From the NCBI RefSeq assembly GCF_032854445.1, contig NC_088300.1:18357570-18421569 (forward strand): a stretch of DNA of 64,000 nucleotides, given 5' to 3'. The DNA is from Liolophura sinensis (taxonomy: Eukaryota; Mollusca; Polyplacophora; Chitonida; Chitonidae). The notes below the pieces were generated by a model. That model was not told the origin of the DNA and ran no database searches. It saw only the letters and a program-made list of their open reading frames with translations. The position numbers and the translations under genes are program-made. Shown piece after piece: positions 38,301-64,000 of the stretch; the stretch's first letter is position 1, and every line of letters starts with the position of its first letter.

Positions 38301-40122
38301 TAACGCTGGTCAATGACTTCACAATTTTGACTCAAACTATGGATGCTTCGGCTACAGTTTTATGTCAGGATGTTTGTCATTGCCCTGATGACGAGGTGTG
38401 GTTTAGTTCCAGCAAAACCACGACATTCCTTCGCCCATAACCTATCCACAGTAGAGAATTTTTGAATACGGTGTTAAATACTAAGCAGCTAAATATATAA
38501 ATAAATAAATAAATAAATGCGTTGATGGTGTTTTCATGTTGTGCCAAATGTATGTAGCGTATTTATATTCTCTGCACATGTTTTCCTTGTCCATACAAAT
38601 TTTTCTCGTCTATTGCAGACTATCGACCGAGATGAGCTAGATACAGTACTGATGGCCAATAACTTCCTCTTAACCCCTGACCAGATTGATTCGCTCTTAC
38701 GTGAGCTTGACATGGACAACAACCAAACAGTGGACATCACTGATGTTCTGACGGTAAGGCGGGTTGGTGGCACCGATTCGCCCAAAACGTGTGGAGACAG
38801 TCCATGATCTGACAGTAAATATGTGAGGTCCATACAACCATCCCAAAACTGAGGAAATCCCATGAAGTATGTAGCCAATATTAACGTAAAGGGACTCTGT
38901 CCTCCATGCATGGTCTGACAATAATTAAAGCGCGTTAGGCTCATACAATCACTCCAGATTGGGTAAATCCCATGAGTGAGTTATTCAGCCAAGACGTAAA
39001 AGTAACCGATGTATGTATTCTAATAGTAAATAAGTCACGTGAGATTCATGCAACCACTCCAGTCTGCATGGGCAAATCCCATGAGTAAGTTATTCAGCCA
39101 AAACGTAAAGGTAACCCACGCATAGGTTGACACTAAATAAGTCGCGTGAGATTCGTGCAACCACTCCAGTCTGCATGGGCAAATCCCATGAGTAAGTTAT
39201 TCAGCCAAAACGTAAAGGTAACCCACGCATAGGTTGACACTAAATAAGTCGCGTGAGATTCGTGCAACCACTCCAGTCTGCATGGGCAAATCCCATGAGT
39301 AAGTTATTCAGCCAAAACGTAAAGGTAACCCACGCATAGGTTGACACTACATAAGTCGCGTGAGATTCGTGCAACCACTCCAGTCTGCATGGGCAAATCC
39401 CATGAGTAAGTTATTCAGCCAAAACGTAAAGGTAACCCACGCATAGGTTGACACTAAATAAGTCACGTGAGATTCGTGCAACCACTCCAGTCTGCATGGG
39501 CAAATCCTATGAGTAAGTTATTCAGCTAAAACGTAAAGGTAACCCACGCATAGGCTGACAGTAAATAAGTCACGTGAGGCCTATTCAACCACTCCAGATT
39601 GAACAAATCCCATAAGTATTTATTTATTTATTTATTTATTTATCTATTTGATTGGTGTTTTTTCGCCGTACTCAAGAATATTTCACTTGTACGACGGCGG
39701 CCATCATTATAGTGGGTGGAAACCGGGAATCCCATCAGTAAGTTATAAAGATGGAACCATACATTCAGCTTAATAACAAGGCCATAATTTGACGTTAATA
39801 AAGGTACTGACCTCTGTACCCAGATTGTCACCAAGGGGCCATTTCCTCACCAATATCGAATCTGACAAATATCAAATACATAAAATGGAGTGTCAATCCC
39901 CACTTTATACAGGAGGCAAATGTCTGGGTTTGTATCGGATGAGCTTTCAGCTGAATATCCTGTTGGGGAATTGAGAAATTTAACTGTTCACATATACTCG
40001 TTATATAATGCCTATCTTACTTCACGTTGCAGGTGCTAGACAAATTGGAAAAAAGGAGAAAATCCCCGAGTGTACCATTGTATATCCAAGAGAAGAAATC
40101 TCAAATATGTGCCATCCAATGA
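34976..40122 (+). CDS. EF-hand and coiled-coil protein, 333 aa, five exons
   Basis: I do not recognise the orthologue. Exons 34976-35383, 36198-36476, 36995-37084, 38619-38753 and 40033-40122 all join in phase 0. Seen in order: an acidic N-terminus (MDTDQVDNRGELEEDDK); a charged heptad-like helix at about 95-136 (KERDIARAETVKVKAELSVA, then KRIEKLERQL); a basic Ser/Pro/Arg-rich linker at 137-229 with many SP repeats; then an EF-hand pair. Loop 1 (254-265, DINNDGTIDRDE) has all canonical ligands and should bind calcium. Loop 2 (290-301, DMDNNQTVDITD) has Gln instead of Gly at position 6 and Asp at 12, so binding may be weak or altered. No signal peptide or membrane segment. A cytosolic calcium-responsive scaffold is plausible. 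The ATG at 34976 is the first in frame apart from a GTG two codons earlier. Confidence 0.82.
35384..36197 (+). other. EF-hand gene intron 1
   Basis: 814 bp. Between 35520 and 35850 short words such as GAAGCGATGG, CATCGCTTCG and GTCATCACA recur in both orientations, giving small inverted repeats. Nothing else is seen. Confidence 0.7.
36198..36476 (+). CDS. EF-hand gene exon 2
   Basis: Acceptor TGTTTTAG and donor GTAAGT. 93 codons from GSRSPTKSARKSKR to ENPQAAFYK. It is very rich in Ser, Pro, Arg and Lys, which suggests a disordered, phosphorylatable linker. Confidence 0.82.
36477..36994 (+). other. EF-hand gene intron 2
   Basis: 518 bp, AT-rich, with a pyrimidine-rich acceptor. No feature is seen inside. 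Confidence 0.75.
36995..37084 (+). CDS. EF-hand gene exon 3
   Basis: Acceptor TTTGTTAG and donor GTGAGT. 30 codons ending AEEKFKAADINNDG. The intron cuts EF loop 1 after its invariant Gly. Confidence 0.85.
37631..37921 (+). mobile_element. tRNA-derived SINE (family A) with target-site duplication
   Basis: The body starts GGGGCCTCCGTGGCCCAGTT at 37644, with the A box in TGGCCCAGTTGG and a B box in GAGTTCAAGTCC. It ends GAGTACGGCGTAAAACACC, then an A-rich tail. TCCATCAGTACAG (37631-37643) and TCCATCCGTACAG (37909-37921) are 13-bp target duplications with one mismatch. Confidence 0.92.
38425..38519 (+). repeat. SINE-like tail
   Basis: CGCCCATAAC...GAATTTTTGAATACGGTGTT, then AAATACTAAGCAGCTAAAT and an (AAAT)n run. 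It resembles the 3' end of family A but lacks the tRNA head. Confidence 0.5.
38619..38753 (+). CDS. EF-hand gene exon 4
   Basis: Acceptor TATTGCAG and donor GTAAGG. 45 codons from TIDRDELDTVLMANNFLL to DMDNNQTVDITDVLT. It holds the rest of loop 1 and all of loop 2. Confidence 0.88.
38754..39617 (+). repeat. Minisatellite, 107-bp unit, starting at the exon 4 donor
   Basis: Eight units begin near 38824, 38935, 39041, 39148, 39255, 39362, 39469 and 39576. The central ones are exactly 107 bp apart and almost identical. A partial first unit overlaps the exon 4 end (CTGACGGTAAGG against CTGACAGTAAAT in unit 1). The consensus holds GCAACCACTCCAGTCTGCAT, then GGGCAAATCCCATGAGTAAG. Confidence 0.9.
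39618..39730 (-). mobile_element. SINE family A, 5'-truncated reverse copy
   Basis: A (TTTA)n tail, then on minus the family A 3' end (GCCGTCGTACAAGTGAAATA, then TTCTTGAGTACGGCG). The tRNA-like head is missing, as in 5'-truncated retroposons. Confidence 0.75.
40033..40122 (+). CDS. EF-hand gene exon 5 (last)
   Basis: Acceptor CACGTTGCAG. It codes VLDKLEKRRKSPSVPLYIQE, then KKSQICAIQ and TGA. It completes the exit helix of EF-hand 2 and a short basic tail. Confidence 0.8.
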   Translation: MLDKLEKRRKSPSVPLYIQEKKSQICAIQ

Positions 40123-40308
40123 AATCAGAGGACGGCCTTCCTTGAGGATATATAGCCTACCCAGTCAAATTCTAACACTGTGTTCTTGGTTCTGGCTGAG
40201 TTTGTGAACAGTAGTTAATATAGTTCCGAGGGAAATGTGGAAACCTCGTGGGATAAGTCCTAGTATTGAATGACTGTATTTGCTTATTTACAGGCAATGA
40301 CAATGAGC

Positions 40309-40380
40309 AATAAATAATTCATTCTCACCAGGTCACCAGGTCTGATATCAGAAGTGCGTTGTGTGTGTGTGTGTGTGTGT
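40309..40380 (+). terminator. Probable poly(A) signal of the EF-hand gene
   Basis: AATAAA at 40309-40314, 190 nt after the stop, followed within 50 nt by a (GT)n tract that could serve as the downstream element. Confidence 0.45.
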
Positions 40381-40490
40381 GTGTGTGTGTATATATATAT
40401 ATATATATATATATATATATATATATATATATATATATATATATATATATATATATATATATATATATATATATATATATATATATATAT
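40358..40490. repeat. Compound (GT)n(TA)n microsatellite
   Basis: About 15 GT followed by about 50 TA dinucleotides, directly abutting the foldback at 40491. Confidence 0.97.
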
Positions 40491-62771: not shown

Positions 62772-63738
62772 CTTTAACACTCCGTCAAATATGGCCGTCT
62801 ACACCTTAGAAGACGCAGCTAGGTATATGTATGATACAGTCATACCGACGAAAACAGAAACAAAAGCTAATCAACCTGTAGGACGACTTTTCCCATGGCT
62901 TCTTACGTTTTTTTCACTCACCTGTCACGCTTGAGTTACTTCGTGGCCTAATTAGATGCGTCAAGTGAAACAGACAAGGGCATATCAGGGGCTATTTAAA
63001 TACATGACTTTTCTTTAATTTCCTGGATGCATTCACATAAATTCACTCTGCGCAGACTGACTGAAAACACCTTGTCGGATTGTTGCAGAGAACGCTGTCC
63101 TCAGGTAAGATTATATCAGGTGTTTCTTCAGATAATAGGTGCATCAGCCGTTTACTGAGACCGACAGGCCACTGATACTCAGCATTATTCCCAAACTACA
63201 ATACATAGCGCGAGACTTTCACTAGTTGCTGTGGAGATTCGACAAGATAAAAGTGGAGCTCCACCCAGCCAGCCCCGCTTACCTTGGCCTTACCTAAGAT
63301 TATAACTCAAACATTGTCCCCACCTGTTCAGCCAGTGCAGAGGAGACGTGTAGAAAATCGCTAGCACTGTACGGCATTGTGAAGGAATTACGTGTGTAGT
63401 CGTGGTACAATTACCTAGCGGGACTACAAACCAGGATTCTCTTACTCATATACAGATAGTGTGTGTGCGTAAACAGTAACAGTGGGTCAGAGAGCCGTGC
63501 GCCAATGGACTAGTGTGTGAGTGTACAACTGTGGACTATTGTCTGACTGTCCTCTCTACTTGTGGGGTGGGCGCTCAGTCCAAGTTTATCTCACATCCAC
63601 TCATCCTCCGTGGTTCAGCCTCTCGGTGTGTCTGCCAGCTTACATCTACCCCACGACCCAAAACAACCGTTCCCCTGCTCTTCCGGCGCCCACTATCACC
63701 CGATCCCCGGACCATGGTGGTGGGGTGAGGATACGGCC
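62772..63738. promoter_or_regulatory. Shared upstream region of two divergent claudin-like genes
   Basis: 967 bp between head-to-head start codons, without repeats. It must hold both 5' UTRs and promoters. GGGGCTATTTAAATACATG (62988-63006) is a TATA-like candidate for one direction. No binding sites are called. Confidence 0.5.
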
Positions 63739-63910
63739 ATGGTGAAGCTGTGGACCCTCAACGCTCTAATCGTCGTCTGCATCGCCTTCATTCTCTTCAT
63801 CGTCAGTTTCTCCACGCCGTACTGGTTAGAGGGGGTGAATAATGCCCCGGTTACTATGGGGCTCTGGCAGACTTGTAGCACATCGTGTTACCTAAATCAC
63901 TACAAAGCAG
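63739..63910 (+). CDS. Claudin/PMP22-like gene 2, first coding exon (3' partial)
   Basis: ATG at 63739, 57 codons plus one base, donor GTAAGT at 63911. Codes MVKLWTLNALIVVC and a first helix (about 7-24), then STPYWLEG and MGLWQTC-x3-C (W29, W43, C46, C50). The W...GLW-C-C signature is present, but the two cysteines are only three residues apart, unlike the x8-10 of claudins and of the neighbouring gene. The very short N-terminus also differs from gene 1. Later exons lie beyond the window. An upstream in-frame start is not excluded. Confidence 0.75.
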
Positions 63911-64000
63911 GTAAGTCGCTATTTACACTGTCACAAAAAAACACTCTACCTTTACAATTAAACCAATTGGTTACTACAAACGTCATTACAAAGCCGGTAA

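Follow-up and report, generated by a model that had tools for sequence, protein, structure and literature searches.

Do tandem arrays in intron-rich DNA arise preferentially at gene edges, or did a few of them begin there as they might have begun elsewhere? The question is raised by a 64-kb stretch of contig NC_088300.1 (positions 18,357,570 to 18,421,569; "the window" below, numbered from its first base), for which the first-pass annotation had claimed that four or five arrays at 38740-64000 with units of 83, 73, 107, 68, and about 86 bp share sequence with a splice site or stop codon that they touch. That observation was partly confirmed. Two of the five named cases are firm, an 83-bp array at the gene C exon 3 acceptor and a 68-bp array at the stop codon of gene B; one, at the donor of gene D, is likely but amounts to a single copy cut off by the window end; and two, those of the 107-bp and 73-bp arrays, are weak. 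Probably these are ordinary minisatellites that began with a duplication taking in a gene edge, the coding copy having been retained by selection.

Arrays at the gene C acceptor and the gene B stop codon

The features of the two firm cases are listed below, with exons placed from open frames and splice consensus and array limits taken from tandem-repeat rows, overlapping ones being merged.

56614..56792, minus strand: gene C exon 3 (the last), with its acceptor ..ctgttacag/GCATCTTAATCC at 56792
56825-57589, minus strand: 83-bp array, nine copies of the intron end, the acceptor, and the start of gene C exon 3
44383..48130, minus strand: gene B, a predicted MFS transporter, with exons 48130-47062 (Pfam MFS_1, E=1.6e-21), 46634-46551, 45164-45008, and 44521-44383
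43678-44421, minus strand: 68-bp array with about 10 units, the end one including the gene B stop codon; degenerate units extend to about 43401

The 83-bp array begins 33 bp from the gene C exon 3 acceptor, and its copies are in register with that junction. Exactly 83 bp separate the true junction at 56792 from the first copy, and the first "exon" bases of the nine copies fall at 56875, 56944, 57027, 57110, 57193, 57276, 57359, 57460, and 57561, the later spacings being 69 bp, 83 bp (five times), and 101 bp (twice). The acceptor itself was copied, with the AG retained in seven of the nine copies, and the translated copies read ILILTAV, ILKLTAV, ILILAAI, and similar, exon 3 itself reading ILILAAI. 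An in-frame stop occurs at the 12th codon in eight of the nine. The true site is the most pyrimidine-rich of the series, with 14 pyrimidines in the 16 bases before the acceptor versus 12 to 13 in the copies. None of 2,000 dinucleotide shuffles matched the 83-bp unit as well as the exon 3 edge did; the exonic part of that edge gave a weaker signal (23/2000 against the unit and 39/2000 against the flank), with p=0.002 in the 39-edge comparison described below. When scored against the consensus of the distal copies, the seven distal copies were identical at 62 to 66 of 66 positions, the two nearest the exon at 49 and 47, and exon 3 at 43.

The first-pass annotation knew of no named class for such repeats, which was an error: boundary-spanning repeats are called mirages in amphioxus. 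The founding paper is reportedly Canestro 2002. As described in the excerpts consulted of two later reports (PMC3087553, PMC3902484), amphioxus globin genes carry minisatellite-like duplications of intron-exon boundaries, both 5' and 3', which were named mirages after the Adh3 work; the globins concerned are BflGb6, whose units measure 150-160 bp, and BflGb9, and units in Adh3 are 10-72 bp long (PMC3087553). The same excerpts place splice signals in many, but not all, units, state that cluster boundaries are excluded from homogenization, and offer data that suggest normal splicing (PMC3087553), while those of the second report describe similar, less perfect mirages in PGBD5 and cite troponin C (PMC3902484). 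The gene C array resembles these in that its units span an exon-intron boundary, nine copies being in register with the true junction; that unit length is specific to the gene; that many but not all units (7/9) keep the splice signal; and that inner units are homogenized and boundary units diverged, here on the exon side only. Judged from one sequence, the 83-bp array is probably a minisatellite of the mirage kind. If the host, by its genes presumably an animal, lies outside the cephalochordates, the array would widen the known range of mirages beyond amphioxus; among the matches listed in the open-access literature we found no report of mirages outside amphioxus, and a paper on Conus, in the portion consulted, treats intronic microsatellites and not exon edges (PMC3862624).

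At gene B, the end unit of the 68-bp array holds the last 12 codons and the stop codon (44383-44421), and no shuffle of 2,000 matched the unit as well. The match ends at 44421, the coding bases 44422-44480 giving 282/2000; among the first ten copy spacings of the array, nine measure 66-68 bp and the tenth 77 bp. Unlike the amphioxus mirages, this array covers the stop codon together with 3' noncoding DNA and no annotated splice site.

Weaker cases among the 39 gene edges

The three remaining named cases involve the following features.

38619..38753, plus strand: gene A EF-hand-like exon, ending ..GACG/gtaagg (Pfam EF-hand_7, E=6.1e-5, below the curated cut-off)
40033 onward, plus strand: next exon of gene A
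38960-39578, plus strand: 107-bp array of 5.8 copies, preceded by degenerate units from about 38801 and adjoining the gene A donor at 38753
62456..62771, minus strand: gene C exon 1, claudin-like (Claudin_2, E=7.3e-4, below the curated cut-off)
59066..59245, minus strand: gene C exon 2 (Claudin_2, E=0.074)
59514-62081, minus strand: 73/74-bp array that occupies the greater part of gene C intron 1, degenerate units reaching about 59320; the acceptor at 59245 is close by
63739..63910, plus strand: gene D first coding exon, claudin/LHFPL-like, with donor 63910/gtaagt (Pfam L_HMGIC_fpl, E=1.2e-4, and Claudin_2, E=2.4e-4, both below cut-off)
63970-64000, plus strand: gene D case of about 86 bp, a single copy of the exon end 86 bp beyond the donor at 63910, where the window ends

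The flank of the gene A donor (38800-38960) consists of degenerate 107-bp units (0/2000 shuffles as good). The donor itself matched that flank weakly (71/2000; p=0.007 in the 39-edge comparison) and the 107-bp unit not significantly (231/2000), its best match being offset by 60-61 bp versus a period of 107 bp. The acceptor of gene C exon 2 showed moderate to weak junction homology. It matched its flank (3/2000; p=0.018 in the 39-edge comparison) and matched neither the 73-bp nor the 74-bp unit significantly (280/2000 and 140/2000), with an offset that drifts from 131 to 140 bp and so falls short of two periods (146 bp). No match was found between the 74-bp unit and the gene C donor edge (738/2000 shuffles as good). 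At the gene D donor, the copy of the exon end that lies 86 bp away is identical at 15 of 17 junction bases. The named cases were also said to lie in three to four unrelated genes: four genes are indeed involved, but genes C and D are both weakly claudin-like. Their divergent starts are about 1 kb apart (62456-63910). A Pfam search with gene C exon 3 gave no match.

The 39 edges (splice sites, starts, and stops) were predicted from open frames and splice consensus; they include those of two further genes outside 38740-64000, a putative Ktu and E, and exclude edges that could not be placed, such as the donor after gene E exon 4. Exon 2 of Ktu had no match in a Pfam search. For each edge, 30 coding plus 30 noncoding bases were compared with the next 400 noncoding bases; at the gene D donor the window leaves room for only 60. 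The gene B stop (z=20.6) and the gene C exon 3 acceptor (z=14.9) scored far above the gene A donor (z=3.7), the gene D donor (z=3.3, p=0.006, rank 4 of 39), and the gene C exon 2 acceptor (z=2.8). Over 12 settings and another null, the gene B stop always ranked 1 and the gene C exon 3 acceptor always 2, the gene D donor ranging from 3 to 4, the gene C exon 2 acceptor from 3 to 7, and the gene A donor from 4 to 9. Edges that had not been named also fell below p=0.05 (Ktu d3, 0.013; E start, 0.024; A d1, 0.034), and since under some settings p was no higher than 0.01 at Ktu d3, E start, E a3, A d1, and the Ktu stop, the weak cases do not stand far beyond background.

Seven other arrays, with periods of 41, 29, 68, 30, 29, 94, and 21 bp, lie 364-3817 bp from annotated edges. 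In the comparison of edges with their flanks, p fell below 0.05, among the edges nearest to these arrays, only at Ktu d3, whose distance from the 41-bp array is 429 bp.

The units themselves were compared in 90 unit-by-strand combinations. The sole long match (score 32) was between the 73-bp and 74-bp units, both in gene C intron 1, so the earlier statement that the units differ and are not one mobile repeat was borne out: units are largely unrelated between genes, and a single mobile repeat behind all arrays was ruled out, as only these two are alike over much of their length. Short matches with scores of 15-17 (p of 0.003 or less) linked the 83-bp unit to the reverse of the 73-bp unit, and the 94-bp unit to the 83-bp and 74-bp units. 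The first of these, between the 83-bp unit (56892-57589) and the reverse complement of the 73-bp unit (59514-60444), scored 16 with 0/300 shuffles as good; it joins different introns of gene C and is possibly due to chance given 90 tests.

Placement of the arrays and rival explanations

Placement was assessed with 11 arrays, namely those with a period of at least 20 and at least 2.8 copies, with overlapping rows as well as 59514 and 60538 joined, and with two-copy rows (12220, 15256), short periods, and microsatellites left out. In 20,000 rounds each array was placed independently at random, with an exonic overlap of at most 60 bases and with overlap between arrays permitted. With limits as called, two of the 11 lay within 40 bp of an edge versus 0.67 expected (p=0.14), two within 100 bp versus 1.05 (p=0.28), and four within 270 bp versus 2.04 (p=0.13), and the picture was the same for 34900-64000 taken separately (8 arrays, 25 edges). 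The p-values for these limits, and for the extended limits given below, are optimistic because the region was chosen after the pattern had been noticed. There is no clear excess of arrays near edges, and this window neither shows nor excludes one; the local process favoring exon edges that had been proposed for this genome is not demonstrated.

How, then, might two arrays have come to share units with gene edges? In the explanation we consider likely, a tandem duplication, local and some tens of bases long, would have spanned a gene edge, the exon 3 acceptor in gene C and the stop codon in gene B, and the duplicate lying in noncoding DNA would have been multiplied by slippage or unequal exchange. 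Exchange would have kept the inner units alike, the end unit that still codes being held by selection on the protein; in gene C, the coding end unit together with its two neighbors would have escaped homogenization. The true gene C acceptor, located at the 3' end of the series and preceded by its most pyrimidine-rich tract, presumably outcompetes the copies. The order of these events, like the role of slippage or exchange and the splice-site choice, is our inference. In favor of the account are the register of the copies, the copied acceptor, the divergence next to the exon, a placement (with limits as called) compatible with chance, and the traits shared with amphioxus mirages. Several observations weigh against it. 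Divergence in the gene C array is confined to the boundary units next to the exon, and the end unit on the opposite side (57561) still matches at 62/66. Compared with exon 3, the copies are identical at 20-21 of 24 positions of the intron part in eight of nine cases (11/24 in the ninth) and at just 21-23 of 42 positions of the exon part, which makes the homology into the exon the weaker signal. The five named edges rank 1, 2, 3, 4, and 6 of 39 for junction repeats, higher than two firm cases alone would suggest. Lastly, when arrays were extended into their degenerate flanks, with limits set by eye from unit-match scores, three of 11 lay within 60 bp of an edge versus 0.77 expected (p=0.036) and four within 100 bp versus 1.02 (p=0.014); at the other thresholds p was 0.13 (40 bp), 0.07 (210 bp), and 0.12 (270 bp), so that two of five fell below 0.05. 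This extended test leans toward an exon-edge process because its limits were hand-set from the scores.

The edge ranks and the extended limits, together with the four of 11 arrays within 270 bp of an edge, would suit a process linked to transcription or splicing (e.g., slippage or break repair at R-loops or at paused polymerase) that makes minisatellites preferentially at exon edges. We nonetheless regard such a process as unlikely: the as-called excess is small (p=0.14 and 0.13), seven of the 11 arrays lie at least 364 bp from any annotated edge, as ordinary intronic or intergenic minisatellites would, and one of the two firm cases concerns a stop codon with no splice site. It is similarly doubtful that, outside lancelets, minisatellites arise at acceptors, donors, and stop codons often enough to affect several genes per 25 kb. 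Alternatively, exons might act as walls, with arrays starting anywhere in an intron and spreading until purifying selection halts them, such that the last unit abuts or invades an edge and mimics a seed. The fall in likeness to the unit at the gene C splice site is what this would produce, and the idea also fits a gene C intron 1 occupied largely by the 73/74-bp array and a gene B array that enters coding sequence only at the C-terminal tail of the protein. Yet the exon part of the gene C copies remains above chance (p=0.002), and the peptides that the copies share with exon 3 (ILILAAI, or the close ILILTAV and ILKLTAV) are not predicted by spreading up to a wall; this explanation seems quite improbable. 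Harder still to credit is that the copies are functional, as alternative acceptors or decoy exons that regulate gene C splicing. An AG after a pyrimidine-rich tract in seven of nine copies would serve such a role, but eight of the nine are closed by the in-frame stop at codon 12, no copy has a tract as rich as that of the true site, and amphioxus Adh3 and globin data, as given in the excerpts consulted, suggest that mirages leave splicing undisturbed (PMC3087553).

An acceptor copied seven times with an intact AG shows how much decoy signal one gene can carry, and such arrays are raw material for intron gain via tandem duplication. Tandem genomic duplication has been reviewed as a route to new introns, and, going by the part of that review consulted, gene C is like it in that the duplicated stretch holds a splice signal (PMC3443670). 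It is unlike it in that there the duplication of an exonic AGGT yields a new intron, whereas here the edge of an existing intron was duplicated within that intron, with no new intron shown. A general exon-edge process, which this window does not demonstrate, would matter. Were it real, mirage repeats would be its widespread product and would continually supply decoy splice sites and new introns.

Other elements of the window

Copies or pieces resembling a tRNA-derived short interspersed nuclear element (SINE) lie at 37646-37890, 41328-41560, 50680-50900, 33340-33600 (seen by eye only), and 39617-39740, the last being a tail that closely follows the 107-bp array. The head GGCCTCCGTGGCNCAGTTGGTT was found twice and the tail AAGTGAAATATTCTTGAGTA four times (with at most 3 mismatches). 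The tails may be molluscan, in which case the gene C array would be a mirage outside the cephalochordates. A SINE tail had no match in a collection of bacterial and archaeal contigs, and a literature search with SINE oligonucleotides yielded no paper. ARAGORN, under bacterial settings, found no tRNA genes, and Rfam gave no match at gathering thresholds. An open frame at 51098-51373 has many charged residues and may be the start of a retroelement gag; a Pfam search with it gave no match.

A hairpin at 40491-40646, with 59-nt arms that are 93% complementary and 38 nt apart, adjoins a (TG)n(TA)n run (40360-40491) and looks like a miniature inverted-repeat element. Two of the arrays distant from gene edges were noted in addition. 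The first (28122-29691) spans 1.5 kb with 68-bp units and longer-order periods of 94, 162, 230, 294, and 362 bp, its nearest annotated edge being 2.5 kb away; the second (54427-55747) has a 94-bp unit repeated 14 times with 92% matches, lies 867 bp from the nearest annotated edge, and includes GTAAGT in its consensus.

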